Positions 24,231 through 64,000 of a stretch of 64,000 nt of DNA are shown here, in pieces. The position numbers and the translations under genes were made by a program. Location of the stretch: NCBI RefSeq assembly GCF_042453785.1, contig NC_091664.1, positions 29,126,501 through 29,190,500 of the forward strand. Reading direction: 5' to 3'. This DNA comes from Malus domestica. Its lineage: Eukaryota > Streptophyta > Magnoliopsida > Rosales > Rosaceae. Numbering within the stretch: position 1 is the stretch's first letter; each line of letters opens with the position of its first letter. The notes below the pieces were generated by a model. That model saw only the letters and a program-made list of their open reading frames with translations. It was not told the origin of the DNA and made no database searches.

Positions 24231-27200
24231 TCAACTCAAAACGATCGTAATAGTACCAGGAATTGATACCTGATCAACCTCCCAGCAGCTTGCAAGCTGG
24301 ATGTCAATCTCCCCGGTATGAAGAAAAGCCGGAGCTTGGTGAGAGAATCTACCTAACTCAGCCCTTGGTATGTCGATGATGCCATTCTTCGATCTGTGGA
24401 TTCTTGGGGCCCTAAACAACGACTTGGATCCGTTAACGTGCGGCAGAACCGCAACCTTTGTGCTTTCGTCGTTATCTTCCAGGACTTGTACCATTTCGCA
24501 TTCACCCTTCGCTGAGTTCTTGTATAATGCCCAAACTTCACCTTTCCTGGGGTATATTTCAAACATCGTCTTCCCATTAGGTTTGGCTTTCACACAATGA
24601 GAGAACGACGAGCGGGAGAAGACCTTGGTTTGACCACTCTTCAGTTTAAATGTCCCACAACAAACCGGTTCACTCGCGTCTTCTGGTAAGCATGGTTCGA
24701 GCAACGCTACATGGAGTTGAAAATTTGGCTTCAACACAATCCTCTTAACTTGTGCATAAGTCCTAGGCATCCCGTTCTTATCACTATACAGCGCCCAGAT
24801 TTGATCAAGCCGAAATTTGTCCTCGGACCTTTGCCCATCAAAGTCATAGAACTGAGATCGGGATAAAATATGGAGAGGAGATGAAGATGAAGGGGCGACG
24901 GGGATTTTCAAGGAACTGACAGAAGGATGATCCTTCACACTTGAATGTGCCTGACTAGAAGTAGAGTTGACTTTAGTCGGAGTGAAGCTGGCATGGCTTG
25001 TATCGTTGGCGGAATCTGGGCACTTCACAGATACATTTGGTCTCGGAATGTTCTTGCTTACATCCCTTGGTGATCTTCTAAGGCTGAAAGACTTACCATC
25101 GGAATCATTTTTCTGATGCTTCTTTGGTGTGTTGATACTCTCATCAGCCTTCCGCGGAGTAGAACTTACCCTGGGTTGAGTTTGGTTACCCTGGTTTGTG
25201 CCATTGTCTTCAGTAATACCTTGAGTTGCTTCTAGCTTAACAGAATTCGCAAACTCGCCATTCGACATTCGTGGAGATCTACGTGTTGAAGTCTCTCTTT
25301 CTGAATAGTTCTTCTCCTGTTTCTCAGCAGCGCACACTTTCCCAGAACTCATTACAGGTTTGGTTTTGCTTTTGCTCATATCACTTGACGAACCATTAGC
25401 TTCAGTATTCATGGTTCTGTTGTCCGTCTTCGAAGCAATGAGGTCATCAAAATTGGTGGGCAAAGCAGCAGGATCAAACTCAAAGGATCCTTCTGGAACA
25501 CCCTCTCTCTCAGTACCTGTCATCTTGAAAGAGGGAATTCGATAAGAAAATCTATACAGCTCATTCGGTGGTACTTGAAACATGACAACCCCATGCTGCT
25601 CCCTTCGCTGAAATAGACTGACAAAACCTTTTACTTTGCCGAGATAAGCAACTCCAACGCCATAATTTTCGACAAAATCCGACAATACTTCCACAAAATC
25701 AAACTTGTACGGTACATGTTTTTCAGGCTCCGAACTCCACCCAATATCCCAATTCTGGTAGATGGCCCAGGTTTCTCCCTTCTTAGGATATACGAAAAAA
25801 GAGCTTCTGCCACTGCCTTTTATGCAGTGCATCTGATGAGAAAACATAAGATGATCTGTAACTTCTTCAGTGGCACCAAGCGTGTACTTGCCACAAGCAA
25901 CAGGCAACTCCTTGTTACACCAAGCAACCTCACGTTGGTCATCTGGACTGGGCTCCAACCAGGTGAATCTCAGCTTAAATCTGGGGGAGAACACTTTCTT
26001 GATACGAGCATAGAATCTGGGCAGTCCATCTAGTGGATCGTAAAGAGCCCACGTTTGATTAGCACTAAACACATTCTCTAACGTATCCACATCAAGCATG
26101 AACTTATTGAATTCAGGATCAGGAACCAGAACGCCTGCTGGTATGGATGTGACATTTGAATTTGGTCCAGAACCATTATCAGCTTTGGGCTTATCGTCAT
26201 TTTTATCTGGCATAGCTGCTTCCTCCACCTTTTGCTCGAATTCAGCAGTTTTGCTTCGTTTGCTGGGCAAACATTCTTCTAGAGGGCGAGTCACCTTTTG
26301 TTTTGCCTCTTTCTTATGTCCACCCACTGCAGCAGTAGTAGCACAACCTGGTTGACTATTATTTTTAGATACCCCACCATCCGCAGCTGCATTCTTCCTC
26401 TCCATTTCAGTATCACTGGAAAATTGACTATCCGTCGACCTTTTGGGCGGACTCACAAAATCATCATCATCATTTAGATTTTCATTGTAAGAAAGATTCT
26501 GTTTGATCCTCGAAGATCTCCTATGGTGATGGCCTTCATTGAGTTCAGAAGGTTTACAACTTTCACTGGATTCCCTTCCTCTTTTTTTGTTCATATTTCC
26601 TGAAGTTTTTGAATCCTTGGATTTCACAGGAGACTTCACAGGACCAGACTGGGATATTTTAACATCAGTGGCAATTCCCGCCTTTGATGGCGGATTTGAG
26701 GTTGCCTTTCCATAATGAAATTGTGTGGAGGATGGCTTTCCAGTACCACCATTACTTTGTGGGGCTGCATTTGAAGTACCCTGATTTGGAGGTTCTTTTC
26801 GATTTGGAAATTGATTCCCAACAGATTCTGGATGAGCATCCTGAGATTGAATACCCAAATCTTGTGCAACAAAGGCTCTTCTGCATTTTTGACAGCGCAG
26901 CAATCGATTTGCAAAATCTTTGAAGTATTGGTATTTTATCTTACAAAAAGGACAACATGTCCAGAATGTGTCCGGTGGGAACTGTGACTGAGGAGTATCA
27001 TTTTGTTTCCTGACAAATAAGTTTCCATTTGACGGGTGAGCTGATGGTATTGAAGAACCAGTTTTCACTTGAGCTCTACACTTCATGTCATACGTAGAGC
27101 GCTTTGCTTGGTCTGTTAGCACCCTGTTGGCTTCCCCAATCAACTTAAAAGCAGCCTCTGCACCAGCAAACTTATTCTTATCAGGATGAAGTAACAACGC

Positions 27201-27467
27201 CAGCTTCCTGTACTGTTTCTTGATGGTTACATCATCATCAGATTTCTGAATCTGAAGAATTCCATACCAGTCCATTTCAAATCCTATTTTGTTCTCCGAT
27301 GAACAGTGAACTTCACAGACTGTAAGTAATTTCTCAATGTTCTCAATTCCCGGAAAGAGTCTTTGTGCCTTTTGTGCCATCTTCCTTGCTCCTGTAAAAT
27401 CACTGTTTCGCATCTTTACTTCTGATAGTTGCATTGCTTTGAACGCCTCCTCTTTGTTGCACTCCAT
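24231..27467 (-). CDS. J-domain (DnaJ) protein with two DUF3444 domains
   Basis: A single coding exon of 1078 aa from MECNKEEAFKAMQLSE; an in-frame Met eight codons upstream is possible, but family members start at MECN. Residues about 65-130 form a type III J domain (DWYGILQIQ, KKQYRKLALLLHPDKNKFAGAEAAF) with the HPD tripeptide that stimulates Hsp70 ATPase. At about 175-210 a zinc-ribbon-like element follows (FWTCCPFCKIKY, LLRCQKCRRAF). A lysine/serine-rich, probably nuclear, linker comes next. DUF3444 occurs twice, about 455-670 (QTWALYDPLDGLPRFYARI, GETWAIYQNWDIGW) and about 850-1060 (QIWALYSDKNGMPRTYAQV, GEVWALYKN). This architecture is plant-specific and some members are implicated in chromatin or methylation reading; no role is assigned to this gene. 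The 5' leader, with introns, reaches about 29.0 kb. Confidence 0.93.
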   Translation of the reverse strand: MECNKEEAFKAMQLSEVKMRNSDFTGARKMAQKAQRLFPGIENIEKLLTVCEVHCSSENKIGFEMDWYGILQIQKSDDDVTIKKQYRKLALLLHPDKNKFAGAEAAFKLIGEANRVLTDQAKRSTYDMKCRAQVKTGSSIPSAHPSNGNLFVRKQNDTPQSQFPPDTFWTCCPFCKIKYQYFKDFANRLLRCQKCRRAFVAQDLGIQSQDAHPESVGNQFPNRKEPPNQGTSNAAPQSNGGTGKPSSTQFHYGKATSNPPSKAGIATDVKISQSGPVKSPVKSKDSKTSGNMNKKRGRESSESCKPSELNEGHHHRRSSRIKQNLSYNENLNDDDDFVSPPKRSTDSQFSSDTEMERKNAAADGGVSKNNSQPGCATTAAVGGHKKEAKQKVTRPLEECLPSKRSKTAEFEQKVEEAAMPDKNDDKPKADNGSGPNSNVTSIPAGVLVPDPEFNKFMLDVDTLENVFSANQTWALYDPLDGLPRFYARIKKVFSPRFKLRFTWLEPSPDDQREVAWCNKELPVACGKYTLGATEEVTDHLMFSHQMHCIKGSGRSSFFVYPKKGETWAIYQNWDIGWSSEPEKHVPYKFDFVEVLSDFVENYGVGVAYLGKVKGFVSLFQRREQHGVVMFQVPPNELYRFSYRIPSFKMTGTEREGVPEGSFEFDPAALPTNFDDLIASKTDNRTMNTEANGSSSDMSKSKTKPVMSSGKVCAAEKQEKNYSERETSTRRSPRMSNGEFANSVKLEATQGITEDNGTNQGNQTQPRVSSTPRKADESINTPKKHQKNDSDGKSFSLRRSPRDVSKNIPRPNVSVKCPDSANDTSHASFTPTKVNSTSSQAHSSVKDHPSVSSLKIPVAPSSSSPLHILSRSQFYDFDGQRSEDKFRLDQIWALYSDKNGMPRTYAQVKRIVLKPNFQLHVALLEPCLPEDASEPVCCGTFKLKSGQTKVFSRSSFSHCVKAKPNGKTMFEIYPRKGEVWALYKNSAKGECEMVQVLEDNDESTKVAVLPHVNGSKSLFRAPRIHRSKNGIIDIPRAELGRFSHQAPAFLHTGEIDIQLASCWEVDQVSIPGTITIVLS

Positions 27468-28962
27468 GGCTGATTTAGAATTAAAATCCACTTAAGTTCT
27501 TTCACATACAGGATATACACCAAGACAAAGCAAATGAAATCCACCCCTGCCTGCCCACTCTCTAGTCATCCAAATCTTCACCCTGTACACAATCGAAGCA
27601 ACTTAAGTCAAGCATGCCCCCCAACTACATATTTATCTAACTAACATTAAACAACAAGTTCACTTACCATTCAGTAAGTATGATCAAGATGATCAGGAGA
27701 AAGTAGATCCTGTAAAGAATGAGAAACAACAAACTGGATTATCCTGAACAAAAGGTTCAGGACAGTCCCATTCACATAAAACTACCACCCAAACTGCGGA
27801 AGCCCAAGACGGAGATCTCAAACCTGCTGACCAAAATCCATTTTAAAGAATCAGAAACAATTAATACGTCAATCCATATTTATAGGGTCTTACTTTATAT
27901 AATGAACAAAGTTTTATTAAAAAAAAAAAACAAACAATTACAATCTTTGAGGACAAGGTATCAACTAAATACAACAGAGCAAACATGATAAAGCTCTTGC
28001 ATACGCATACAAAAAACATCATCCGAGATTAGTTGTAAAAACAACAAATACAGGATCAAGAAAAATGGAATTTCCCCACAATTTCAAAGTAGCAAAAACC
28101 TAAATTGAAGCCCAAAAGCTTACTTTTGTCCCATAAAACATCGACCCCTCCCTAGTAAAATCTTCAAACCTCTTCTTATTCCTTTACCACCACACTACCC
28201 ATAATACAGAAAACACTCCGCAACTCTATACGACCTTTGCCTTCTTCCCATCGCCTTTCACAAAAGAGATCCAAGAAAACCAACAGAATTAACGCTGAGC
28301 ATAACGGAACACAAACAATGAAGAAACAGCTGGTCTAAAATCCCAACACATGAAACACCATTTGGGAGAAAGACAAACATTAGGACAAAAATTAAGTCCT
28401 CTCGTCAAGTTATAAGTGCTTAGCCTTTTCAAATCACATTCCTGCTATCCCTTTCAAAAGTATCTGCATCTGATGCATCCAATTAGTCCTTCAAATCACA
28501 CCCTAAAACTCAAAAGTAAAACTGGAAAAAAAAAATACCCAACCACATTCCCCAAAAGACCACAGTAATTCAAAACTCACAGAAATTTCAGCTTACCTTT
28601 AAAAAGTAAAAACAAAAGGACATGAGCGCTTAACTTTTTCACTCTTTCCATTAATTTTCTCAGCTACCAAACACTCGTATTTCCACAATGCACAATAAAA
28701 TCAACCAAAATCCAAACATATTAGCATACACAAATTACAAAAAACCAAAAATGATATTTGCAAACCAACCAAAAAGTACAAATCAAAGTAAATGCATGAT
28801 CGGAGATCCAGAGCTGGAGAACCAAACAGCCAAAATTAAGCTCAGCAAATAAGCATTCCAACAGAGCAAGGAGCTAGAGTAAAATTACCCAGGATCGGAT
28901 GGCTAAATTGTAATTATGCAGAATTTCAAAAACCCTAGAAATCTCGCTGACCAGAATTAGCT

Positions 28963-31741: not shown

Positions 31742-34700
31742 TCATGCATTTCTTGCCAACACATCCCTGATCAGTTGCTTTGGTGCTGCATTAGTGAACA
31801 ACGAAAGGAAAGGAACATGATAAGATAACGGTTGAAAAGGCGGTTAATATGCAGAAAGATTTTACAGAGAAACTTGCAATTGTTAAGTCTTTCGTGTTGA
31901 ACTTACCAGGTGAACCAGAAAACTTTTCAACCTGTACAAATGCTTGATTGAGGAACATTTCCGTCCCGGAAACAACGGCTGCTCCAGACTCTTGTGCTTC
32001 TTGTAAGAGTCTTGTCCATTTAGGTGTATGAATGGCATCAAACACCAAAGAATAGTTCTTCAAAGCGTTCTGTCAAAAGAAAGAGCAAAGATAATAGAAA
32101 GAAATATGTCACTACTCAGTTGCAACGCGAAGGTTCAAGAAAACATAATCTTTGTATCGAATTGATCACTGTATGTGTAGTGCGGACAAACCTTGGATAA
32201 GGGTGTTTGATCAATTCTCGGCTTCATTCCAACCGGTGTGGTGTTTGCAAGAACCATTCCCTCCTCTGGATGGAAATTTTCCAATTCAGCAAGAGTGATA
32301 GCTTCTCCTCCAACTTTGTTTGCAAGTGCCTTGGCTTTGTCTAGCAGTTGGAAGAAGAAAAAACTATGAATTCTCGAAGAAATAGGACCGTCAATTCAAG
32401 CTGACAAGGCAGTTGCCACTTCAAATTACATGGAAAAAAGAGAGGGAGAACGGATTTAAATAACACCATAGTTCCTCTCCATTTATCATGTTGGATAGTG
32501 GCCCAAATTAGTGACCAACTTGCAAATACATTTTGATTAAATAAAAGAAAAGAAAAGGTGGACAACATCATTGTGTCCCTTCCTTGTTTTGGGGAAAAAA
32601 AGGCAATTTGTCTAAAGTCCCTTTTATTTGGCCCTTTGTGAAAGCCACGGGATAGTGGCTAGGTTTTAATTAGGGCAGTAGCTGCCATTTGGAAAGAGTA
32701 GCAAAAAAATAAAAGCAGCAACAGAGAAGAGAAAGAAGAGGTAGTGCCGTAGCCTCTCCTTTTGGTTAGTAATCACCCACCAAGGTAGTTGTTGTTGTAA
32801 TAGCTTTGAGCTTTGTATAGAAAAGAAATTATCACTATATTTTTTTCTCTATTTGTTTCTTTGGTGTGTGTGAGCTATTTGTTGTATTGGGGTTTTGGGT
32901 TGTGAGCTTGTCAACACTTTGTAAACTCCCATTTGGTTAATAGTGGATTATTGAGTGAGTTCCTACTGCTCTGAGGACGTACTCCAATTACACTCACTGT
33001 TGAGGAATCTCGTTAAAATCTTGGTGTTCTTTTATATTTTGTACTTGGATTCCATTTGATATATTTCTTGTAGGTTAGCTTGAGTTGGTTCCATAAGGTT
33101 TGGTGCTATAGCACAACATATCAAATCAATGTTTACGGTCTATTTCATCAAAGAGTAAGGCAGTTTTTCGGTTTTCGCATGCTTTCCTTCTCGTAGTTAA
33201 CCTTACAATGTGTTATGAAATTCATTATCTTTTCCTTTCCCAGCATTTTAAGCTTGTATTTAGTAAAGGATTAAGACCGAAAAACTTGGCGGTCGGAGTA
33301 AAAGGACATGACCGAAGATTCTCACCATATGTGCGATTGGCAACTACCACTCTTGCTCCTTTCTGTTTTCCACCATATGCAAGTGCCTTTCCAGCACCAC
33401 CAGCTCCAATGACGACAAATAGTTTACCAGCTAATGGGGAGCCGGATCCATTACTTGAACCGTTTAATGCTGCGCAGAAAATAATAGCGGTTTGTTATTC
33501 ACCCTATCAAGACAGCTCGATCCATGAACTTATTTTGTAACAGTTCGTCCGAGAATATTGAATAGCTTGCGAAATGCAAAGAAACCTTGAAGTCCTTCCT
33601 CAATGGCTGCAATTGCTCCTAGATAGTCCATGTTGTAGCCTTTTAATTTGCCATCAGCCGGGTTCCTGATCATGCAACTAATAGCTCCTATTTCCTGTGA
33701 AAAACAGCTAGAAGGCTCAACGATCTTTTCCAGAGAAATTTAATGCCAAAATATTGACACTGTCGGGATGGGATGCTATGACAATATGCACGAAAGAAAT
33801 AATGTACCTTGGCATTTGGATCGATTTCATCACAGCATTTAATCCCAGCGTCGTCGTGAGGAATTGTGTAACTGCGTTTCATATATATGAAAGGCACTCC
33901 CTTTTTCGAAATAACTCACTAGGGAATTCCTAGGTGAACTTACTAAGAAAAAGTAGAAGCTATGCTGAAGTTTCTGAGATCAGAAGTTACCTGTATCCAA
34001 CAAAGTCGGGGGAGTTATAGGTGTCAATAAAATTCGCAACGTTATCAACCAACAAAGGCAAATAAATTCCATTGAAATTGATAGATCTGAAGGCTGCATT
34101 GTAAAGATGAGGGATTTTGCTGTGACCGATAGGATTTCCTATCACACCATGTACTTTGGTATCGGCCCCTATAAGTCTGAAGTTGTATAAGTCCAGTAGA
34201 TCTCTTACGGTGGGCTGGCCAGGGGCCGATACTACTCCCGCCTCTATTGTACCAAAAGTGAGGAATGCACCATATTTTGCACTAAGTACGCGTGAGATCA
34301 AACCCTTCTCGCCCATAACAAGCCCTATCATTGGGACCTACAGTTTGAGTTCAAATGTCATTTACGCGCTGCAGAAGATGTCGGATAGTAAGATGACTCA
34401 AAATCAGATCAACGGGTTTGAGTCACTTACTTGAGAATGCGCTAACACTTGAAATACACGTGCAGAGTCGGTGATGTCTAAGCCAGTTGTCGCGATCTTC
34501 ACTATGTCAGCTCCCGTAGCTTGTATCCTTGCAACAAGATCACCAACTTCCTCGGCAGATGGAGTTTTCTCATAGTTGTGTGAAGAAACAATGATTTTGA
34601 CCTTTTCTGGCTTCCTCCCTTGAATGGAATTGTAGAACTCGTCGGCTACCTTCAAAAGAGAAAACCTCGAAAGGCTTAGTGACTAGATTAGCAGTTGCCA

Positions 34701-35464
34701 ACTTAGGTTCTGATGGACTCATAGCAGTTGCATACATCCATGCCGTGGACAGTATGACCGAAAGAAGATAAAAACTTTCAACTGTGACTATTCAAAGATG
34801 CATGAGATTCGTACCTTAAGTTCGACGTCAATAAAATCCGCTCCCAAATCCATGGCTACACGCAGTGCATCTTGTCGCTGCTTGTCGTCACCCTTGTATT
34901 GACCGCCTTCCCATGCTGGCCTATAGGTAAATGAAGCATAAGAAAAACTGCTAGACTGCACTTAACAGAGACACTACCACGCCGAAATGAATTCAACAAA
35001 ATACGCAAAACATATATGCAGCAGCAAGGCGAGTTTGAACATGAAGCAACTAAAAGAACATACACAAAGCAATCAAACTACTCGTATCCTTTAGACTAAC
35101 GCGATTACTCAGCATCCAAAAACTCGTAACTTTAGACTCGGCAGACATTATTCAATCCAACGCTCTTAAATTCTTAAACTCCGGAACTGTGACTAGTATA
35201 TACTGTGAATAGATTGCATTAAACTAAGTGATATATCAATCGGTTCAACGATTACCTGTAAGTGACAAGGGTAGGCAAAGGACTCTGTTTGATCAATACA
35301 CTGAGGTCTTGTCTTGGACTGAAGTTCTTCAAAAAATCAACCCGAAGTTCAACGAGGTCAGCGCCAACTTCCTTTGCCTTCCCCATTTGGACCAGCATCT
35401 GATCAACTGAATCCGCCACTACCGGCGCACATATCAATGTGGAATTTCTTCGAGTTCCATCCAT
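31742..35464 (-). CDS. DHQ-SDH: Bifunctional 3-dehydroquinate dehydratase/shikimate dehydrogenase, altered SDH site
   Basis: Ten minus-strand exons: 35464-35256, 34920-34815, 34649-34431, 34337-33991, 33871-33808, 33694-33586, 33469-33326, 32340-32192, 32069-31907 and 31785-31742. They join to 517 aa. The type I dehydratase half (residues 1 to about 245) keeps its catalytic set: VELRVD, DVELK, SSHNY (His) and DIVKIATT (Schiff-base Lys). The dehydrogenase half keeps the NADP loop (VVIGAGGAGKALAYGG, ANRT) and the late Gln (MFLNQAF). However, the active-site TIPHK of plant enzymes reads TIPHDDA here, so the catalytic Lys (Lys385 by Arabidopsis numbering, from memory) is Asp. The substrate-binding SKSP reads SKIP and GYNTD reads GYNMD. 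Shikimate dehydrogenation is therefore doubtful, while dehydration should be intact. There is no transit peptide: the protein starts MDGTRRNSTLICAP, so it is possibly cytosolic. Reading frame and splice sites are intact. Confidence 0.92.
32572..33118 (+). mobile_element. Copia-type solo-LTR-like remnant in an intron
   Basis: Fossil sequence in the large intron between exons 7 and 8 of the dehydratase gene, opposite in strand. It has features of a plant Copia LTR: TG start, ttgtaaactcccatttggtt, a 'gaggaatctcgttaaaatcttggtg' type block before a T-rich stretch, and an end in caaca. No internal domain is seen, so it would be a solo LTR. The flanks (atcat and tatca) are only similar, so boundaries and family are tentative. 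Confidence 0.4.
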
Positions 35465-35831
35465 GATATGAAGATCCGAAGCTGCCAACTGAAAGTTCAC
35501 CAAATGAAACAAACAAGCAAAAAGTGTACAGGTCATAAAATTCGCAACATGAACCTACCAAACTACACCAGATTTTCACACATAGGAAGCAGAAAGGAAT
35601 CGACTTTTTCGGTTAGCAATGGAGGCAAATGAAAACCCATAAAAACCAAAAAGCCCAAATTTTCTGGGCCGTTTTTATTTTCCCTCCATTTTCTCAGCAA
35701 CCAAACAAAGGGGTCTGACTATTTACCAGTTTGGCACCCAGAGAACCAAGACTCAAACAAGTAGCATTCAAATCCAAAATTTGCTATAGCAAATCCTCAC
35801 TGCCCTCTTAAGTAACAACAGAACAGAACAG

Positions 35832-35859
<28 letters not shown>

Positions 35860-35866
<7 letters not shown>

Positions 35867-35990
35867 TGGGTGCAGAAAGAACAAGTTAGATTACCGGGAG
35901 GGTGCTGCGAGTCATTTCCCTTCAATTGCGTAAGGTTTGGAACTTCAAAGGTGGCCAGCAATGCCAGCAAAATCACCTCCTATTGGTCTA

Positions 35991-36039
<49 letters not shown>

Positions 36040-36230
36040 AAACAGAGTAGAGAGAGAAAATTTGAGTGCGAAAGAACAAGTTGGATTACAGAGAGGGTGC
36101 CGAGAGTCATTATTGTCCTTCAATTACGTATGGTTTTGAAACTTCAAGGGTGGCGGCAACCAATGCCAGCAAAACCAACTCCTATTTGTCTAGAGAGAGA
36201 GAGAGAGAGAGAGGTTGGTGGATGTGGTTG
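35860..36230. repeat. Tandem duplication at the dehydratase gene 5' end
   Basis: Two units of roughly 185 bp lie side by side. Each contains aagaacaagtt[a/g]gatta, a gagtcatt block, ccttcaatt[g/a]cgta, cttcaa[a/g]ggtggc, atgccagcaaaa and a tctcctattt-like end. Each is followed by a (GA)n tract (35993-36035 and 36193-36213); a third GA tract precedes them at 35836-35862. On the minus strand the unit includes a donor (cccg|gtaatc, about 35897) that should splice the leader to the ATG exon. The duplication therefore copies leader and core promoter. Confidence 0.75.
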
Positions 36231-45379: not shown

Positions 45380-48300
45380 TCATGGCTCCTCTTTCATCTG
45401 CCTGAGACGTTTACTTTTACGGCATTGTTCCGGTTCAGTCCTGATGGATGAACGGCTGCTTCTACGCTTCCCTTTTTCGTGCTCTGGTTCATCCTTGGGG
45501 ACAACAGATGGCATTGAACTTCCTGAATTCTCCTTAAGTCGTTCCAGCTTAACGATCTCTGATTCAATGTCCTTGAACGGGAACTCAGACTCGAGGTTGT
45601 GGTCTTTGATGTATCGAATCAGATCTCTCAGCTCGGCTATTTGGTTGCCTAAAATTTCATCCTGTGAGCAAAATTAAGCCATGAAAGATGTACAATTTCT
45701 GTTATTACACTGAGCGTGGTTCCGATTTAAGTATTTAAGCAAATAGCTATGGGATGTCAAGAAGAGTAAAGCTACCTTTTCATCAAGTGATTCTTCTTCC
45801 AGCCATATTGTGCGGTATGACTTTCGTGCATCCTCCGCATAATCTTTCAAGAGTATTGCGGGCGAGAACTTGCCATTTAACTTGAAGGCACACATGAATT
45901 TAACAGCGTCGATGACCTGCTTCCTTTCAATGAGATTCTGAACAACATCTGTTATGTTTAACACAAAGTTGGAATCATTAGACTGCTCCACAGAAGTTTC
46001 AAAAGGACAATTGCACACTTAAAGAAGTTATCATTAGCAAAAGCATTAAAAATAAATAGCGTTGACAATTTATTCTGTTGCTGCGTTGTACACTATTTTC
46101 CCAGTTAGCTTTTGTTTCGGAGACTCAAAACAAAAAAGATTCTATTCCATCGATCGCTTTTTACCATTTGCCTTTTTCTCTTTATATTTTTATATTCTTT
46201 TGATTCATTTGCCTTTTCCATTTCCATTTGCCTGTTCCTCTAAGTGATCAAACGGAGAATCCCAGTGATGACAACACGATTCATGAAACTCTCATCCGAG
46301 GAGAGGACAACAGTTCCCCGACAAACTAAATATCAACCATCAAAAGATACACTTGTGTGGAAATTTGTTAAGCTTCCGAACAACCCTATATATATAAAAT
46401 AAAATAAAATAAATCCCAACAAAATCAGTATCTCAACAAGATGATTGACTCATGAAATTGATCACAGGCTTATCGGTCATGTTTAAGCTATTTGCTAATA
46501 TTCGACTAGTAATCAACTCCTGAAGATGGTCTAAAACCAACATAAACCTATCACCCTAGCAAAATAGACATAAGAATGGCATTGAGGATACTCATAGTTA
46601 CAAATGCATAGAGCCAGAATTTTGTAAGTTGCAGAAAGAAATTAATTAACATACAAAGAAATAGGTAAGAGAAGGGTACTGGAACACAAATGTCACACTC
46701 TCAAAGTTAATATTCAAGAAACTTACCAGGTAATATCTTATCCGCAAAATCAAGTGTCTGACATAACTTTGTAGCCTGTTTATGCTGACATAACACCCCA
46801 AGAAGCTTTACAATATCATCTCCATTTAAAGTAGAAAGGATTCCATATGTAGCTATAAACTGCAGAAAACCCAAAATCTCCAGTGAATTTCCGATATCAG
46901 CTCTCATTTTTGCTTGCCACTGGACTGCTAGCTTTACTGCATCTTCTTTCACAATAGGTCCAACATCCGGTCTAACTTTCATTAGATCATTCAACATGGA
47001 AATATGATTCTTCATGAAATATTCTTCAAAACCAACACCTCCTTTTCCCCAGTGCTCATTAAAAGATTCTTGCATCAGCTTCAAAAAAAGATTTGCTGGG
47101 TCAGTTGACCTTTTTAAAACAGCAAGCATTCTGTTTTGCATTGGCTGGTTCTCAATTAGTGAAAGATTTGGAGAAGATGAAGTTGCTGCATTTCTGACAT
47201 GTGAAGATTCTGGTTGCTCAAGTTTAACAGGGAAAGAATTGTAGATTTCCGCTATGTAATTGCAAAAGGAAACAAAGAAAGATAGTACGGTGAGTGACAA
47301 GGTTTGAGTTTATGGTATTATTGTGGCAAAACAAAAGATCGATTCAGAAGTATACACAAAATGCAAACCTTTGCAGAATATAACCACAAGGCAAAAAAGG
47401 GGACAATTGCTATGAAATATGTTTAGAAATCATTGCTTTTGTTAAAGTAAATGTCTCCCCTACAACTTCAAAATATGAGAGATATATTACATAACCAAAT
47501 AAAAATTAGAAGAGCTTACCAGGTGCCTGATTTGTGATACCAAAGGCCTGGAGTAGTTCAGTAGCCTGTTCTTGCATAGCAACTATAGCTTTGATAGTCT
47601 TCTCCTTACACTTTTGATTTTGGATGTATTCCTCCGTGGATTTTTGAATCGAATAAAATTCTTTTTGTTTCAATTTGAGATCCTTGACCTGTTTTTCAAG
47701 TTGCCTCTCTCTAATTTCAAGTCCATGGGATCGTTCTTGCAATGAGTTTTCTTGTAACTTCATATGCTTTTGGCACTCTTGATTCATGGAATCAACTTCT
47801 TTTTGTTTCAATTTGAGCTCCCTGACTTGTTCTTCAAGTTGCCTCTCTCTCATTTCAAGTCCATGGGAACGTTCTTGCAACAAATTTTCTTGTAAATCCA
47901 TATGCTTCCGGTGCTCTTGATTCATGGAATCAATTACTTTTTGTTCCAATTCCAGATCCTCGACCTTTTCTTCAAGTTGCCTCTCTCTCATTTCAAGTCC
48001 CTGGGAACGTTCTTGCAACGAATTTTCATGTAAATCCATATGCTTTTGGCGCTCTTGATTCAATGAATCAAATTTCTTTTGTGTCAGTTCAAGCTCCTTG
48101 ACCTGTTCTTCAAGTTGCCTCTCTCTCATTTCAAGTCCATGGGAACGTTCTTGCAACAAATTTTCTTGTAAATCCATATGCTTTAGGCGTTCTTGATTCA
48201 TGGAATCAATTTTTTTTTGTTTCAATTCCAGATCCTTGACATGTTCTTCAAGTTGCCTCTCTCTCATTTCAAGTCGATGGGAACGTTCTTGCAATGAATT

Positions 48301-49305
48301 TTCTTGTAAATTCATATGTTTTTGGCACTCTTGATTCATGGAATCAAATTCTTTTTGTTTCAATTTGAGCTCCTTGACCTGTTGTTCAAGTTGCCTCTCT
48401 TTCGTTTCAAGTCCACGAGAACATTCTTGTAACAACTTTTCTTGTAATTCCAATTGTTTTTGCCGTTCTTGCATCAACTTCCTGAGTGAATGACACTGCT
48501 CTCCTTGCAACTGAACCTCACCAAGGCATTCACTAACCCTACTCTCAATCAAACTGAGTTCTTCAACTTTTGACTCAACTTCTTTTTCTCTCAGTTCAAG
48601 CTTCCCCACCCATCCTTCGAGTTCCCTCTCTTTCGATTCAAGTTTACAAAACCACTTCTCCATGGACTTCTTAAGCATGTCAAAATCTTTCGCCTTCACC
48701 TCTATTTCCCTGGTCATTTTCTCTCTCGATTCAAGTGTCTTAGAGCATTCCACCATTGATTTCTGAATCAGCCGAAGTCTCTCATTTTTCGATTTCATCT
48801 CTTCCTGACATTCTTCGAGTGATTTCTTTGCTTCCTTAATCTGCTCATCCATCAAATCAAACACTCTCTTCCCCTCATCAATAGACCCCTTAAACCCTTC
48901 CAATTGCCTCCGTTTCAACTCAATATCTTCACTGTACTTGCTCACTTTCTCTGTCCCTTCCTCAATGCATTTCTCAACTTCCAGTAACCGTTTCTCTTTA
49001 CCATCAACCTCTTTTCTTTTCTCCTCTGCCAACCTCTCGATTTCGCGCAATTCCTCAGCTTTCGATTCCATTTCCGAGTTAAAGTTCACAACTTTGGCTT
49101 CCAGCTCCGTTTCCCGGTCCTCAACTTCCTTGATTCGGGTCCGGAGCGAGTTCCGATCCGAGTTAATGCCGTCCTGGATCTCCTGGAATTGGCTCTGAAG
49201 CATATTCCGAGCGGAGCCCATCTTCTCCAAAAGACCCTTCAGTTGCAAGGAACCATTGCACTGCATCAACTCCGATTGTTTCAAACGGGTAACCATCTTC
49301 GCCAT
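45380..49305 (-). CDS. FRL: FRIGIDA-like protein, array member A
   Basis: Four minus-strand exons: 49305-47520, 47251-46727, 45948-45776 and 45661-45380. They join in frame to 921 aa from MAKMVTRLKQSELMQC. Exon 1 codes a coiled coil: about 300 residues of Glu/Lys/Leu-rich helix, then six 46-residue repeats ([35 protein letters not shown]). It ends with ATELLQAFGITNQAPG. Exon 2 codes a Frigida-domain module (VDREKLMQES-type start, LAVQWQAKMR, LEILGFLQFIATYGILS, FADKILPG). Exon 3 gives DVVQNLIERKQVIDAVKFMC. Exon 4 ends with IAELRDLIRYIKDHNLESEF and a basic tail (KSKRLRQMKEEP). Compared with members B and C, the first Frigida module at the end of exon 1 is nearly all missing. The family includes the flowering-time regulators FRI, FRL1 and FRL2; a role in flowering is not shown for this type. 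Confidence 0.88.
47680..48510 (-). repeat. Intragenic 138-bp repeats in FRL-A (six)
   Basis: The block ttcaagttgcctctct recurs near 47696, 47833, 47972, 48109, 48246 and 48384, at a spacing of about 138 bp, and encodes 46-residue coiled-coil units. Units are closely alike, more so than to those of B and C, which points to expansion or homogenisation within the gene. Confidence 0.85.
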
Positions 49306-49753
49306 TGTTGATCAAGTTTGTCTTTCTTCTAAAAATTAAAAATTAAATTAAATTAAAAAATCCAAAAAATTAAGAATCGAACTGTTACGAACACGATTCG
49401 GTTAAACATGAAGAAAAAAAGAGAAAACCCTAATGTGCCTAGTGTGTTCAGTGATCAAAGAAGGTGCATTTTCAGTTTCTGAAAAAACAAAACCCTAAAA
49501 ACAGAAAACGTGAGATTACTGAAAGAGAACGAAAGGCCGCCATTGCTGATGAAATGAAAGAAACTGCGTACCTTTTGAGTTGAGATTTCTCGGCTCTGGC
49601 CTTGAAATCGACGGCTATGGAGGAAGGACGGCGCAAACCTTGACGCTTTAGCTACCGCTTCTTCTTCTTCTTCTTCTTCTTCTTCGAGCTCTCTGAAGCA
49701 GTGAAGCTCCACCAGCTCGGTTGTTAGGAGTAAACGATCATGCAGATCATACG

Positions 49754-49827
49754 GACAAAGCAACGGCTAGGATTTATGGGGACTGTCTCTGACAAAGCAA
49801 CGGCTAAGATTTATGGGGACTGTCTTA
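49754..49827. repeat. 37-bp tandem duplication upstream of FRL-A
   Basis: Units beginning at 49754 and 49791 read gacaaagcaacggcta[g/a]g, then atttatggggactgtct. The pair lies at the presumed promoter/start region of FRL-A. A related 'gcacaaagcaacgg' stretch occurs upstream of FRL-B (about 54876). Confidence 0.85.
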
Positions 49828-50039
49828 GTACCGCACGGTCGGCGGCCACGTGTCCAGACGTACTGTTTTGGCCTTTAGTCGGCCAATTTTTGGTCTTTCC
49901 TGTTTGTCATCACTGGCCGATGAGCCCATCCTCTGTGTGTTTGAACAATTTTATTTTATTTTATTTTTTTATTAAGGAGTGTGATTAGTTTTTAAAATTT
50001 TAAAATGATTATGAAAAAATGATAGTGAGATAATTTCTT

Positions 50040-50245
50040 TTAATAAGTGCATATTTTATCTTAATATTACATAATTACTGTTTTGTCCTCCTTATGTAAA
50101 TATTGTATATCAAAAGTGAGAGTAAAATCGAAAAAATAGGGATATGATTGTTATTTTCTCAAAAGATACAAAATTACTATTTTGCCCTCATTATGTAAGT
50201 ATTGTGTATTAAAAGTGAGGGCAAAATAGGAAAAAATGGGGCAAA
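50040..50245. repeat. Two diverged 'attttgccctc' repeats
   Basis: About 50070-50145 and 50166-50242 share aattact[g/a]ttttg[t/c]cctc, ttatgtaa[a/g]tattgt and aaaagtgag[a/g]g[t/c]aaaat. The right flank 'tcttaataatagtacagat' is a motif common at the ends of dicot repeats. It is probably a short decayed transposable element. Confidence 0.55.
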
Positions 50246-50844
50246 ATTTTGACAAGGAGGGTTCTCTTAATAATAGTACAGATTATTACTTACAGATAAT
50301 ATTATTTCGGCGTTTATCAAGGCATGTTATTTTTCGAATGGTTGTTTTATATCCCTGTTGAAGATGCAAACATTTCAACACAAATTCGTTTGACCAAAAA
50401 AAAAAAAAAAAACGAAAAAACGGGGTTTTTGTTTTTTAAATTTGACGCTTAATTAATCTTCTCAATTCAGTGAGATTAAAAAAATAACTCACTTGTTAGT
50501 TGTGACAAATTCACCACATAACAAACTCATATTAGAGTACGGTTTATTTTTTAATACGGGACACAAATTTATGATCGGCTAATGCCATTGAGACAATAAA
50601 TTAGTTGAAGAGAGAACCTCAACAACTAAAAAATTAGTTAATCCCATTCATATTATTTTTTTCGTCCTCAAACTTGCCCTTCCGAATAAGTAAACATGTC
50701 ATTTCTTCTTAGTAAAACTTTATAAACTATATTTTAAACATGATAGTTCAAGCAAATTCTGAACATGTTTCCACTTCCACACAAGCAAATTCTGAATAGC
50801 TGCTTCTCCTGCATGGAAGTAAAGCCACTCAAAATTTTCTGCAA

Positions 50845-53800
50845 TCACGGCAGCTCACTCAGCCGTCTGAGACGCTTACATTTGCGCCGTTCCGGCGGTT
50901 GAATCTTGATGCCAAGATTCTGAATCAAATCTGCAACATTTTACGACAAGAAGGTTGCCATAAGGAGAATAGCATGAGCGTATATAACAACTCGAACTTG
51001 TAGAACTCACTATTACTATAAGCAAACATGAACCGAAGAACTCGTATTTCAGATGGAACGGAATCCTAATTACGCAAGCTAAACACTTTATTCCTAGGAG
51101 ATAGCAAATGCTCTCGAAAAACTAACTACAAAACCAGTCAGAAGTTACACTAGTAACAACCAAACCAAACTTAAAGGTCGTACCCAGTGCACAAGGCTCC
51201 CGCTTTACGCAGGGTTTGGGAGAGGTGAATGTCGGCTAGCCTTACCCCTATTTATGGAGAGGCTGCTCCCAAGTCTCGAACCCGAGACCTACCGCTCATG
51301 GACGAAGGCACTTGCCATCGCACCAAGTGCGACCTCTTCCAGAGCAATGGTAGTGGAACATGAGCATAACGATATGTATGAATGTCGATTTTCAAGAAAC
51401 TTACCAGGGATCTTATCCGAAAGACCAAGTGTCCGGTGTGAGTTTAGAGCCATTTCATCCAGATAAATCATCCCAAAAAGCTTCACAATCTCATCTTTGT
51501 TAAAGGCAGAAAGCAATTCATATGTAGATATAAACTGCAAAAACCCCAAAATCTCAAAGGAATTTTCAGAATCAGCTCTCAATTTTGCCTTCCACTGGAC
51601 TGCTAGCTCTTTAGCATCTTTTTTCACATCAGATCCAACAAGAGGTGTGACTTTTGCTAGATCAATCAACAGGGAAATGGTATTCTCCATGACAACTGCT
51701 CCAAGACCAACATCTCTGTTCCCCCAGCATTGATCCAAATGAGTTTTTATCAACTTGAAAGCAAGTTTTTCCGGGTGCAATGACATTTGTAGGGCAACAA
51801 ACATTTCATTCTGCATTGGTGGGTTACCACTTGAATGCTCGTTTAGAGAGCCCTGCATATTTGTTGCATCTGTAGTGGCACCAGGTTGAAGATTTGGAGA
51901 AGATGAAGTAAGTACATTTCTAACCGGTGAAGATTCTGGTTCCTCAACTTTGACGGGGAAAGAAATGCTGTTGCTCGCTATGTGATTGCAAGAAGAAACC
52001 AAGAAAAGGATAAATAAGAAGAAAACTTGCTAAAAACCTTTAACAACACAATAACAAAATAGGGACAAATAAAACTATTCACATTTTTTAGGCCAACAAA
52101 AGGGAGAGAGTATTTACTTACATAACTTTAAAGCTCCAAAAAATCTTTGCAGAATATAACATTTTTAAAATTTCTTTATAAACCATTTCTTGAAACAACA
52201 TCTTAACGTAAATAAGTAATCTGGTAATCTACAACTCCAAATGAAAAAGGTATAGAGAGCTTACCGGGTGCCTTGTTTGTGGTCTTAAGTGCCTGGCATA
52301 ACTCACTTGCTTGTCCATGCTGAGCCACGATAGTGAGAAGACTTTGAAGCTCCTTTGGATCACAAGCAGTTGTGATGTCATACACAGTAACAAGCTTCAA
52401 AAAGCCCAAAACCTCCATATCATTCTCGCTTGCCATCGTCATCTTAGCCTTCCAATCAGCTGCCAAATTCATTGCATCTTCTCTCACCTGAGGACTTATT
52501 TGTGGGGAGAATATCTTCAACTCCTGTAACAAAAGAATACAACTCCTCCTAATAACTCTCAAATCATAATCAAACGTCTCCGAGTTGTCTCCAGTCAAAT
52601 TTGAAGGATAAAACCCTTGCATTGCATTCAAAACTAGTTTTGCTGGGTCAGATGACACCTGGAGAACAGTTGAGATTTCAGTGCCAACTAAATCAATTCT
52701 TTTCAAATGCTCATTCATGAGCAACTGCAAGCCTCTTCCATCCCTATTGATAATGGTAGCAGGGGTACATAGCAATTGCTGATCATTATCCACTTCAGGA
52801 TGGACATTAGTCTTCTCCTTGGATTTCAGGTTTTGGATGTGTTCCTCCGTGGATTTTCTAATCGAATCAAATTCTTTATGTTTCGATTCAAGCTCTTTGA
52901 CCTGTTCTTGGAGTTGCATCTCTCTCATTTCAAGTCCATGTGAACTTTCCTGTAACAACTTTTCTTGTGAATCCAAATGTTGTTGGCGTTCTTGAATCAG
53001 TGAATACGATTGTTTTTGTTTTGATTCAAACTCTTTGACTTGTTCTTCAAATTGCCTCTCTTTCATTTGGAGTCCATGGGAACGTTCTTGCAACCATTTT
53101 TTCTGGGAATCCAAATGTCGTTGGTCTTCTTGAATCATCGAAACAAAAACATTTTGATTTGACTCAAACTCTTTGACATGTTCTTCAAGGTTCCTCTCTT
53201 TCATTTCAAGTCCATTGGAGAATTCATGTAACAACTTTTCCTGTGAAATGAATTGCTTCTGGCTTTCTTGAACCATTGCATCAAATTGTTTTCGTTTCAA
53301 CTCGAGCTCCTTGACCTGTTCTTCAACTTGCCACCATTTCATTTGAAGTTCATGGAAACAGTCTTGTAACAACTTTTCTTGTGAATCCAAATGCTTCTTG
53401 TGTTCATGAACCATCAAATCAAACTGTTTTTGTTTCAACTCAAGCTCTTTGGCCTGTTTTTCAAGTTGCTTCTCTTTCATTTCAAGTCCGTGGGAACTTA
53501 CTAGTAACATCTTTTCTTGGGAATCCAAACGTTGTTGTCGTCCTTGAATCATCAAATCAAACTGTTTTTGCTTTGATTCAAACTCTCTGATCTGATCCTC
53601 AAGTAGCCTATCCTTCACTTCAAGTGCACAGGAACGCTCTTGTAACGAACTTTCTTGTGAATCCAAATGCTTTTGGCGTTCCTGAATCACCGAATCAAAC
53701 TGTTTTTGTTTCAAGTCAAGCTCTTTGGCCTTTTCTTCAAGTTGCCTCTTTTTCATTTCAAGTCCATGGGAGCCTTCTGTTAACATCTTTTCTTGTGAAT

Positions 53801-54467
53801 CAAAATGTTGTCGGCGTTCTTGAATCACCGAATCAATTTGTTTTCGTTCCAACTCAAGCTCTTTGGCCAGTTCTTCAATTCTCTCTTTCTTTTCAACTCC
53901 ACCGGAACATCCTTGCAACGACCTTTCACACGAATGCAATTGCTTTCCTTCCAATTGAACCTCATTCAGGCATTCAGTGACCATGCTATCAACCAAACCG
54001 AGTTTCTCAACTTGTCTCCGTCTAAATTCGAGCTTATCAACCAATCCTTCAAGTTCCCTCTTTTTCGCTGCGAGTTTACGGGTCCTCTTCTCCATTGCCC
54101 CGATGACTTCTTCTTTCGATTCGAGTGTATTACAGCATTCCACCATTGATTTCTGAATGAGACCAAGTTTTATAGTTTTAAACTCAACCTCTTTTCCTTT
54201 CTCCTCTGCCAAACTCTCGATTTCCTGCAACTTTCGGGCTTTCGCTTCCATTTCCAAGTTAAAGTTTAAAACTTTAGCTTCCCATTCCTTCTCCCGGTCC
54301 TCAATATCTCGGTTTCGGGTCAGAAGCGAGTTCCGTTCCGAGTCAAAGTAGTCCTGGAGCTCTTGGAATCGGGTCAGGAGCTGCACATTCCGGGTCGAAC
54401 CGTCAGAACCCAAAACCTCCTTCCATTGCTGGGCAAGATGGCTCTGCTTCAACTCCCTTTTCTCCAT
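50845..54467 (-). CDS. FRL: FRIGIDA-like protein, array member B (shortened 3' end)
   Basis: Three minus-strand exons, 54467-52265, 51977-51405 and 50930-50845, join in frame to 953 aa. The start is MEKRELKQSHLAQQWKEV, by analogy with member C. Exon 1 has about 220 residues of coiled coil, then about eight 46-residue repeats ([29 protein letters not shown]). A full first Frigida module follows ([64 protein letters not shown]). Exon 2 codes the second module ([34 protein letters not shown]). The last exon joins the start of the usual exon 3 (DLIQNL) directly to the end of the usual exon 4 (IKIQPPERRKCKRLRRL). An internal deletion thus removed most of both exons and the intron between them, while keeping the frame. 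It probably still makes a protein. Confidence 0.85.
51172..51336 (-). mobile_element. Au-type SINE in the second intron of FRL-B
   Basis: Read on the minus strand it begins gaggtcgcacttggtgcgatgg, has an A-box-like gatggcaagtg and a B-box ggttcgagactt, then gcctctccataaatagggg, ctagccgacattcacctctc, gcgggagccttgtgcactgg and gtacgacctt. This is the tRNA-derived Au SINE of flowering plants, essentially full length. No convincing target duplication is visible, so it is not the newest insertion. Confidence 0.88.
52850..53900 (-). repeat. Intragenic 138-bp repeats in FRL-B (about eight)
   Basis: The 'cttcaagttgcctctctttcatttcaagtcc'-type block recurs about every 138 bp near 52912, 53048, 53186, 53323, 53460, 53600, 53737 and 53875. 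Each unit encodes 46 residues of coiled coil. The units are more diverged than those of member A. Confidence 0.8.
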
Positions 54468-55909
54468 TGTTGCGCTTCTGTCCCAAACAAAGAAAAGAAA
54501 CAAAACAAAAACCCCAACTGTTACGACCTCCATGGCGGATGAAATTTGAAGAAAAAAAATGAGAAACCCTAAAACATAGAAGGTGCATTTGCAAATTTCC
54601 TAAAAAAAATTATCAGAAAAAAAAAAAAAAAAAAAACCTGAACGGATACTGAGATACTGGAAGAGAATGTGAGCGGGAGGTATAATACGACGGCGTAGTG
54701 ACATACCTGCGTTGGGGATTTCGAATTTGCTCTTGAATCGACGGCTATGGCGGAAGGAGGCCGCCAAAGCTTGGAGCTTTGAGCTTCTTCTTCAACACTC
54801 CAACGTTCAGTAGCACGCACAGGTGCTCTACTCATTTGTTTCATACAAATTGCATCTGGGCCGTTAGTTTAATGCTTGCACAAAGCAACGGACAAGATTC
54901 AAGCTAACCCGGATCATGCCAATATGAATGAGTCTTATGTCCGTACGGCTAGTTGCCACGTGTCTAGGTTTTTCCCGCTTTGGTCTGCAATCAGAAAAAT
55001 CGTCCGTGCGGACCACGCTACCACAACCACAACAAAGCCAATCAACCGTGAGATTCGCACCGTTCAAGAGAGACGAGGATCCAGACCCTTCAATTTTGTA
55101 AAGTGAGCTAGTACGATAGATTAATGGGTGCTGTAAAATTTGAAATAAATGGTTGGAATTACTTAGTTCATAATCCACACCGACCTGTTCTAACTAATAC
55201 CAACGTAGAAATGCCCGCTTGTTTGTATCTGATGCCAGGGGGGCTCGTCGTGCTTGTGGAAAAAAATTATCTCCTAAGATGGTTTAATTTGATCTGTTTT
55301 GAATTTGAGCTTAATTAACCTCTTTCTATTTAGTGGGATTACTTGGTCTTTACTTAAAAGGAAAAAAATGATATAATAATGGTCTTATATATATATATAT
55401 ATATATATATACCAAATTTGGATTAGAACATTATGTTCCTCCTATTTCTGCATTCAAGTTTAAATCTCCATATTTTGTAATTAGATGAATTTGGTGTTGA
55501 ATATCGGTTGTATAGAAAAAAAATCCCCCCTTTTTTTTTGAAGAATCCTCATATTTAAGTTTTAAAGTACATAGAAATTGATTTAGAATTTCATATCAGC
55601 AATCAAATATTTAGCTAAAAGAGTGTGTGTGTGTGTGTGTATATATATGTATATATATGTATGTATGTATATAAGAATTAGTCAAGACATTTCCTTTCAT
55701 GTATCTCTCAAGGTTTTGCAACATAATCTGTTTCCACAGAGAAACAATTCTACCTTGAAGTCAGTCAAACAAACTGCTCCTCCCAAATGCAAGGCAATGC
55801 AACTCAAAAGAAGGCAGCTGACAACAACCTATCAAACTTCGCAATTAGCAGGTAACTAGAGGCTAATACTACGGTCGAGGTTTTCGGTTTTACTATGCAC
55901 ACGAGTCCA
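54468..55909. other. Region between FRL-B and FRL-C
   Basis: Contains the leader of FRL-B with the element 'gaatcgacggctatggcgga' (about 54733), a G-box-like cacgtg near 54957, an (AT)n tract at 55386-55411 and a GT/AT tract at 55622-55672. The 3' UTR of FRL-C ends it. There is no other gene. Confidence 0.55.
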
Positions 55910-58900: not shown

Positions 58901-59556
58901 TCTTTGGATTCGAGTGTACGGTAACATTCCCTTATCGATTTTTCAACGGCACCAAGTATCGTCCTTTTCGATTGAATCTCCTTATGACATTCTTCGAGAG
59001 ATTTATGCGCCGCTTTAACCTGCTCTTGTTTCGAAACAAAATCTTTCATGACATCGTCAATAGACCCCTTAATCGCATTTAATCGCCTTCCGTTCAACTC
59101 AGCCACCTCCTTCTTCATCTTCAGCTCTCTCGACTTCTCATCCAAACTTTTCACAACCGAATTCAATTTCTCCGTTCGCTCTTCGATATCATTTTTTATC
59201 AAATCACGTTCCCTCTCCTTCTCCCTAACCGATTCCTCGTTTTCCAACAACCATTTTTCCTTACTACCAACCTCTCTTCTTTTCTCTTTCGCCAATCTCT
59301 CGATTTCATACAATTCCTGAGCTTTAGACGCCATTTCCGAGTTAAAGTTCAAAACTTTGGCCTCCAACCCCTTCTCGCGCTCCTCAACCTCCCGCTGCCG
59401 TGTCTGGAGCGAGTTCCGCTCCGAGTAAAAACGGTCCTGGAGCTCCTCGAACCGGGTCTTGAGCGAGTCAAAGTGGTCCAAGAAGTGTTTCCACTGCAGG
59501 GCCAGATTCCCCTGCTTCAACTTCGGTTCATCCGAACCGGACACCATCGTTTTCAT
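55910..59556 (-). CDS. FRL: FRIGIDA-like protein, array member C (most complete)
   Basis: Four minus-strand exons, 59556-57903, 57452-56880, 56486-56302 and 56185-55910, join in frame to 895 aa from [15 protein letters not shown]. Residues 1 to about 390 are coiled coil, including about three 46-residue repeats. Frigida module 1 spans about 395-551 ([63 protein letters not shown]). Exon 2 codes module 2 ([31 protein letters not shown]). Exon 3 gives [20 protein letters not shown]. Exon 4 gives [20 protein letters not shown] and the basic end [15 protein letters not shown]. All modules found anywhere in the array are present here, so it is the best reference for the ancestral plan. The donor after exon 1 is a weak G|GTTTTC; reading through would stop after a few codons and drop the later modules. 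Confidence 0.88.
58470..58860 (-). repeat. Intragenic 138-bp repeats in FRL-C (about three)
   Basis: The 'tgacctgttcttcaagctgcc'-type blocks lie near 58478, 58617 and 58756, one repeat period apart. This is fewer than in members A and B. Confidence 0.8.
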
Positions 59557-60043
59557 CGCTGGCGTCTCTGCAACTTCTGCAAAAAAAAAAATATAGAAAT
59601 AGAAACCCTAATCTCTGAAATACGACGCCGTATGAAAATGCAGAGCGAAAAACGATAAAACCCTAAAGTGCCTTGGCGATCAGAGAAGGTACATTTCCAA
59701 TTTTCTCAGAAACAAAAACCCCCAAAACAGAGGAGGTGAAATGTTGAACCAGAATGCGAGAGAGAGAGAGAGAGAGAGAGCTAAAATACGACACCGTATC
59801 GACGTACCTGAGTTGCGGCTTTCAGTTTTGCTGCAATACGACGACGTATCGGCTATGGCGGAAGCTTCAAGCTTTCTTCTTCAGCTCGACGTTCTCAGTC
59901 CCTCACATGCAGTACTCAGTGGGTTAATTAATTGCACGATGCATCTGGGCCGTTGGTTTAGATGTGTGGTGAATGAACGGATGGGATTCAGTCTAACCGG
60001 GTCAGGCCATTAGGCCAATCAGAAACGAGTTTTGTTTCCCTAT
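59557..60043. other. Leader and promoter of FRL-C
   Basis: Contains a (GA)n tract at 59759-59780, the 'tatcggctatggcggaag' block shared with the leaders of A and B (about 59846), and agcttcaagctttcttcttc. There is no coding sequence of its own. Confidence 0.5.
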
Positions 60044-60485: not shown

Positions 60486-60499
60486 TTTCCCTATTGTCA

Positions 60500-61541: not shown

Positions 61542-61680
61542 AAAATTTCTACAGTGCTTCGAAGTATCTTATACTATGAGTTTATAACCGTTAAATCTTG
61601 ATCAGTGTAATTTTTTTCAATAGTATTCTAACAGTTAAAAACTCCGGAGTCTAGGATACTCCAGAGCACCGTAGGAATTC
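61542..61680. mobile_element. Short MITE, about 139 bp
   Basis: The left end aaatttctacagtgcttcg, then aagtatcttatac, pairs with the inverted right end gaattcctacggtgctctgg, then agtatcctagac, over about 40 bp, leaving a loop of about 55 bp. The 'cctacggtgctc' end type is a common small MITE. The target duplication is unclear. Confidence 0.7.
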
Positions 61681-63778: not shown

Positions 63779-64000
63779 CTATGGAATTGCAATAGGAAAC
63801 AAAACGAGGCAGCACACAGGTCAGTACCTGAATAATTCTGCATGTAATGTATCAAAAGATATATACAACACTATGTGCCATCTGTGCTTCTACTCAAGCA
63901 TTAACCAATAGGTGACGGTGTGCATAGCTTTTTGGGTCAAATTATACCGAGAAACACTAAATATATACATACAAAATACCCAAACATAAATAACAAAATG

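Follow-up and report, generated by a model that had tools for sequence, protein, structure and literature searches.

The lysine of the shikimate dehydrogenase (SDH) catalytic dyad is replaced by aspartate in a Malus domestica gene for a fused dehydroquinate dehydratase (DQD) and SDH, which raises the question of what such an enzyme can still do. The gene lies in the window, the whole 64,000-nucleotide stretch of DNA that was analysed, and is called C4 here; C12, C15, C1 and C7 are other contigs of the same genome. The original prediction described a dehydratase with a lost or changed dehydrogenase function, perhaps a neofunctionalised paralogue without plastid targeting.

In the spliced model, C4 runs on the minus strand from start to stop codon over 31742..35915 in 11 exons and encodes 532 amino acids. 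The coding sequence of 1599 nt has no internal stop, and all 10 introns are of the GT-AG type. The protein contains, in order and all above cut-off, the Pfam domains DHquinase_I (PF01487), Shikimate_dh_N (PF08501), Shikimate_DH (PF01488) and SDH_C (PF18317), the architecture of plant bifunctional DQD/SDH enzymes, in which a type I DQD domain is fused to a three-part SDH domain, and residues 21-529 align with the Arabidopsis DQD/SDH chain 2gpt. Exons 1 (35915-35895), 3 (34920-34815), 9 (32340-32192) and 11 (31785-31742) follow from the spliced model; the residues of the other exons, all likewise on the minus strand, are best described by comparison with Arabidopsis. The DQD domain starts in exon 2 (35488-35256), where the equivalents of E124 and R126 are kept, and exon 4 (34649-34431) retains the catalytic His144 (Arabidopsis H214) and Lys171 (K241). 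Exon 5 (34337-33991) keeps DQD Arg209, Ser230 and Gln234 together with SDH Ser266, and has Ile268 instead of Ser338 (codon 34115-34113) within the motif HSKIP. Exon 6 (33871-33808) encodes TIPHDDA (C4 residues 311-317), where Asp315 (codon GAC, 33855-33853) replaces the catalytic Lys385. In exon 7 (33694-33586), Ser336 and Cys337 replace Asn406 and Thr407, Met352 (33631-33629) of the motif GYNMD replaces Thr422, and Asp353 (D423) is kept. The NADP loop GAGGAGK and the NRT motif are both intact in exon 8 (33469-33326), and in exon 10 (32069-31907) His478 replaces Tyr550 (codon 32030-32028), with Gln506 and Gln510 kept. At residue level, the spliced model thus bears out TIPHDDA for TIPHKEA, SKIP for SKSP and GYNMD for GYNTD, as well as the predicted integrity of splice sites, frame, NADP loop and dehydratase residues. 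The interval first given, 33808..34337, covers exons 5 and 6 with SKIP and TIPHDDA; GYNMD falls outside it, in exon 7.

A tblastn search found no other DQD/SDH copy within the 64-kb window, and no alternative exon 6 bearing the Lys was seen in the introns adjoining exon 6. Intron 8 contains a solo LTR-like insert of 630 bp (32489..33118, plus strand), which is flanked by TATCA direct repeats, a target duplication, and leaves the coding sequence untouched; a relative of it (78%) is found at C12:29288043-29288701. Coding exon 1 has a tandem duplicate at 36090..36110 (minus strand), and 153 of 186 aligned columns are identical between the copies. The duplication (36090-36110 versus 35895-35915) lies between GA-repeat tracts and takes in the 5' flank and the donor. 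Each copy has its own ATG and donor, and therefore alternative first exons are possible. Elsewhere in the window, an open frame of 1085 amino acids (24237-27491) with DnaJ and DUF3444 domains is collinear with C12, and several FRIGIDA-like reading frames lie in tandem at 46700-64000; two of the three scanned match the Pfam model, and frames of this kind match several places in the C12 region.

The replaced lysine is part of a wider change. Six of the 11 SDH-pocket residues published for Arabidopsis (listed in the accessible part of PMC4892741) differ in C4 from 2gpt/2o7s, namely S338I, K385D, N406S, T407C, T422M and Y550H, and Ser336, Thr381, Asp423 and both Gln are kept. The predicted Lys to Asp change is therefore real but belongs to a set of six, from which N406S, T407C and Y550H had been missing; T407C, and possibly N406S, is an ordinary group IV state in the published material available. 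The Lys/Asp dyad is incomplete, with Asp423 kept and Lys385 changed to Asp, and so is the carboxylate clamp Ser336/Ser338/Tyr550, in which Ser336 is kept and the others are Ile and His. Codon 385 is GAC in C4 and AAG in C12 and in both C15 copies (C15a and C15b), and Lys is present in all five other copies of the genome that are readable at this position. Because Lys to Asp requires at least two base changes in the codon and the five other readable copies have Lys, the replacement is not due to chance or to a single read error. Lys is also found in all seven distinct SDH-family PDB proteins examined residue by residue, and Lys385 and Asp423 are fully conserved across the 32 dicot sequences, including the group IV strawberry FvSDH2, compared in the accessible text of PMC4892741. 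A plant DQD/SDH without Lys385 is not mentioned in the parts available of the literature searched, which consisted mostly of papers outside subscription; within the same limits, new combinations of active-site residues have been described for the pomegranate PgSDH3a copies (PMC6836501).

The DQD half presents a different picture. All eight catalytic or binding residues (E124, R126, R155, H214, K241, R279, S300 and Q304) are identical between C4 and Arabidopsis. E124, R126, R155, S300 and Q304 are positions that we take to be DQD site residues. A ninth position, K298, which to our knowledge is not a published site residue, is Val in C4 and Ile in both C15 copies. H214, K241 and R279 are named as DQD-site residues in the portion of PMC6797610 that is accessible. 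Profile scores are in line with these residues: C4 reaches 209 bits with the aroD model (cut-off 139.3; Arabidopsis 216), but only 169 bits with the aroE model TIGR00507, below the cut-off of 200.2 that Arabidopsis passes with 217.7, a control that is not itself a group IV enzyme. Arabidopsis falls below the cut-offs of the SDH model NF001319 (215.8 versus 252) and of other SDH models listed. In relative-rate tests with five bacterial or archaeal SDH chains as outgroups, 47 SDH columns are identical in all five, of which eight are changed only in C4, none only in Arabidopsis and six in both (p=0.008). The three outgroups available for DQD agree in 85 columns, where four are changed only in C4, four only in Arabidopsis and 35 in both. 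Searches for DQD/SDH relatives found at least two distant loci in the prokaryote collection and none in the viral collection.

Among the known systems, C4 shares its two-domain architecture and DQD catalytic residues with Arabidopsis DQD/SDH (2gpt, 2o7s), to which it is 62% identical over 496 codons, and differs from it in the SDH pocket and in the aroE score. With the AroE shikimate dehydrogenases, its SDH half has in common the domain architecture, the Asp of the dyad and the glycine loop, but not the catalytic Lys, which is Asp in C4. The plant quinate dehydrogenases of groups II and V are, like C4, derived from DQD/SDH and changed at position 338; however, in the published accounts as far as available they have Gly at 381 and, in all cases but one, also at 338, and group II has an NAD motif and two members with damaged DQD residues, whereas C4 has Thr381, NRT and an intact DQD site. 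With the group IV enzymes (VvSDH4, FvSDH2, EgSDH2, Poptr5, DkSDH and CasSDH3), C4 shares Asn406Ser, Thr407Cys and NRT. According to the accessible part of PMC4892741, group IV usually has Ser406, Cys407 (except in EgSDH2) and Val422 and keeps Ser338, Lys385 and Tyr550; at 338, 385, 550 and 422, C4 has Ile, Asp, His and Met instead. Positions 406/407/422 read Ser/Cys/Met in C4 and Asn/Cys/Val in its C12 sister, compared with the group IV signature Ser/Cys/Val. Residue numbers of C4 are identical with those of EcDQD/SDH2 at the four pocket positions named in the available text (336, 337, 352 and 510), although EcDQD/SDH2 has Gln at 407, where C4 has Cys; from its residues, we place EcDQD/SDH2 in group IV. 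By signature residues alone, C4 would be a gallate-clade, group IV-like DQD/SDH. By ChloroP, transit peptides are confined to certain members of groups I and III (PMC4892741, accessible part), and the lack of one would therefore be ordinary for group IV. WoLF PSORT, in the available portions of PMC7752791 and PMC11921145, puts EcDQD/SDH2 and 3 in plastids, which disagrees with the ChloroP picture.

Searches of the whole genome (651 Mb, 19 contigs), in which best candidates were scored, gave at least seven further DQD/SDH places. An intact sister gene, collinear with C4, lies at C12 29284554-29280532 (within C12:29278001-29287000). Its 11 exons match those of C4 in length; it has no indels and 46 amino-acid differences, and is without a stop, frameshift or lost splice site. 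The sister has Lys385, but its SDH half carries other lesions (S336V, G463A and K466T) and also T520A and S570F. Collinearity of the two regions extends to the neighbouring genes, whose dS values are 0.17-0.20 for three of the four compared (the fourth lacks a one-to-one partner) versus 0.33 for the C4-C12 pair. This excess suggests that both genes may descend from an older tandem pair that predates the genome duplication, of which one was kept on each side, an origin that would leave the pocket count unchanged. Some 3.3 kb upstream of the C12 sister, a relic exon 2 of another DQD/SDH (C12:29287975-29287844, 44 amino acids, 55-57% identity to C4 and C12) is probably what remains of a lost tandem paralogue. 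C7 carries, from 25629584, an intronless fragment set in other sequence that corresponds to coding bases 1-410 of C12 (94% identity; 86% to C4) and is retro- or capture-derived; since it is intronless, it shows that a C12-type transcript had introns 1 to 3 removed in the way modelled. Two further pairs are located on C15 and C1, one of group I type and one with Gly381 (C15:37254501-37264000 and C1:7567501-7577000). The C1 member of the latter is a pseudogene, in which exon 2 was not found within C1:7567501-7577000, the acceptor of exon 5 is lost, nine bases are deleted and three stops are present, one of them in a poorly aligned exon. Its C15 partner has the quinate-type Gly381 change and keeps NRT and the DQD residues. 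The two best-candidate whole-genome searches showed no DQD/SDH copy with an NAD-type motif, which suggests that a group I-type gene may have gained quinate activity anew.

The sister pair offers a measure of selection. By the Nei-Gojobori method, applied to 496 of 532 codons, C4 and C12 differ with dN 0.040, dS 0.328 and dN/dS 0.12 overall; dN/dS is 0.09 in DQD, 0.14 in the SDH half and 0.10 in the SDH half minus the 11 pocket residues. Neutral evolution of the SDH half, which would have spoken against the original prediction, is not observed. The differences are concentrated in the pocket, with 8.5 nonsynonymous changes on 28 sites, and 6 of its 11 residues differ versus 18 of 253 in the remaining SDH half (Fisher p=1e-4); none of the eight DQD-site residues does. 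A four-sequence maximum-likelihood codon model in which equal ages were set for C4 and C12 (the clock model) gives, for DQD, the rest of SDH and the pocket, dN/dS of 0.13, 0.06 and 1.6 on the C4 branch and 0.10, 0.16 and 1.6 on the C12 branch. In this model, dN/dS=1 is rejected with p<=5e-12 in three tests (C4 DQD, and the rest of SDH on both branches); for the pocket it is not rejected (p=0.45 for C4, 0.41 for C12), and pocket and rest differ (p=0.012 for C4, 0.006 for C12). If anything, the rest of SDH is more constrained in C4 than in the background (0.06 versus 0.18, p=0.027). With no clock, the C4/C12 root is poorly placed owing to saturation of the outgroup at synonymous sites, and here the test of dN/dS=1 on C4 gives rejection for DQD (p=0.008), weak rejection for SDH minus the pocket (p=0.049) and none for the whole SDH half (p=0.10), with a borderline result for C12 DQD (p=0.051). 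As controls, the group I pair has 0 of 11 pocket differences at dS 0.10-0.15, a weaker contrast than it appears because this pair is younger in dS than C4-C12 (0.33), and the pseudogene pair has dN/dS of 0.36-0.52, with one of 11 pocket residues changed and one unreadable, both in the poorly aligned exon. In the partitions tested, constraint is evident in both sister genes everywhere but in the shikimate pocket, where it is undetectable in either.

When 40 differences are polarised against both C15 copies and Arabidopsis, 15 are assigned to C4 and 9 to C12 and 16 are not assignable, the change at T422 being one that these sequences do not polarise. The C4 changes outside DQD are S338I, A376V, K385D, E386D, L389I, N406S, D513E, S522P and Y550H, with six more in DQD. 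N406S may alternatively be an old group IV state that reverted in C12. The changes assigned to C12 outside DQD are S336V, I459M, G463A, K466T, N508T, T520A and S570F, with two more in DQD. On the residues so assigned, the losses of C4 fall on the substrate and catalytic side and spare the cofactor side, and those of C12 mostly do the reverse. C12 lost its SDH residues by another route, as is expected if the activity itself was no longer needed, and loss of shikimate chemistry is most likely the common outcome of both sister genes.

On balance, C4 appears to be a bifunctional DQD/SDH of the gallate-forming, group IV-like type that is now mainly or only a 3-dehydroquinate dehydratase. The gene is intact, its residues are as described above and both of its halves are under strong constraint. 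The N-terminal half would make 3-dehydroshikimate via the usual Schiff-base lysine, Lys171. The C-terminal half would keep its fold and NADP loop and have lost the reduction of 3-dehydroshikimate, since Asp has taken the place of the dyad's Lys and, of the three residues that bind the carboxylate, Ser338 and Tyr550 are gone. Instead of being pulled on to shikimate, 3-dehydroshikimate would be released to other enzymes, and the SDH half would be held for folding or NADP binding. From these residues we infer that SDH activity is lost and DQD activity retained, with release of 3-dehydroshikimate, and the prediction of a dehydratase with a lost or changed dehydrogenase function is still the best reading, given the intact DQD site, the remodelled pocket and the constrained SDH half. 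Against this reading, a mere passenger SDH domain would need neither the strong constraint outside the pocket nor the untouched NADP loop; the unusual strength of that constraint in C4, together with the intact loop, may leave room for a new reaction.

Such a reaction is the substance of a tentative second reading, possible but less probable, in which C4 binds NADP and a new pocket (Ile268, the Asp315-Asp353 pair, Ser336, Met352 and His478) uses another substrate or works only in the oxidative, gallate-forming direction, a variant that would want a base rather than a general acid. This reading is favoured by the intact NADP loop and NRT, by the contrast between the rest of SDH and the pocket in dN/dS on the C4 branch, and by the location of the 15 C4 substitutions, of which six lie in the substrate lobe, three in the NADP domain (one being the pocket residue H478) and six in DQD; in addition, the published text available connects gallate formation in Eucalyptus with changes at positions 406, 407 and 422. 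However, pocket dN/dS is indistinguishable from 1, and drift therefore explains the pocket equally well, the sister gene took another route, and the gallate-forming VvSDH3 and VvSDH4 keep Lys385 (PMC4892741, accessible part). Because the Asp is not common to the C12 sister, which has other SDH lesions, the neofunctionalisation that was originally suggested is not shown. An unlikely extension of this reading is that the sister genes independently dismantled opposite sides of one active site, with scaffolds and dehydratase sites held by selection, and that C4 turned into an enzyme that binds NADP and has an Asp-Asp dyad, a broken carboxylate clamp and a substrate new to the family.

That C4 is an ordinary, slow shikimate dehydrogenase in which other residues compensate for the Lys is improbable. 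Asp423, Thr381, Ser336, both Gln and the NADP loop are kept, and the K69A mutant at the equivalent Lys of a bacterial SDH, with kcat down 68-fold, still retains about 1.5% of it, according to the accessible part of the source; but positions 338, 385 and 550, which hold or turn over the substrate, are changed together, along with 406, 407 and 422, and the aroE score stays under the TIGR00507 cut-off. A decaying pseudogene or an assembly error is very improbable, since C4 and C12 are both free of stops, frameshifts and lost splice sites over 1599 nt, overall dN/dS between them is 0.12 and Lys to Asp takes two or more base changes. The LTR-like insert in intron 8 and the real DQD/SDH pseudogene on C1 of the same genome would fit decay, yet that pseudogene is visibly damaged and its pair has a far higher dN/dS. 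The change of Ser338 recalls the quinate dehydrogenases, a paralogue of which C4 is extremely unlikely to be: position 338 is Ile rather than Gly, the signature Thr381Gly with Ser338Gly is absent (C4 has Thr311 and Ile268), and NRT stands in place of DID. The kept Thr381 and NRT and the intact DQD site make the quinate route unlikely; that site includes His214 and Arg279, both of which are lost in the group II CsDQD/SDHb and VvSDH2 in the descriptions available.

According to the accessible part of PMC10304466, ellagitannins occur widely in Rosaceae, with the oligomeric forms confined to Rosoideae. It is through DQD/SDH paralogues that plants have diverted quinate and gallate from the shikimate pathway, and the C4/C12 sister pair represents two natural experiments in one genome. 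Apple may have lost hydrolysable tannins, a lead that would explain a freed site. If the preferred reading is true, C4, as a constrained copy lacking the catalytic Lys, would offer a natural form of the enzyme with dehydratase function only. One could then test what preserves the SDH half (folding, NADP binding or a new reaction) and whether tannin loss sets gallate-clade enzymes free.
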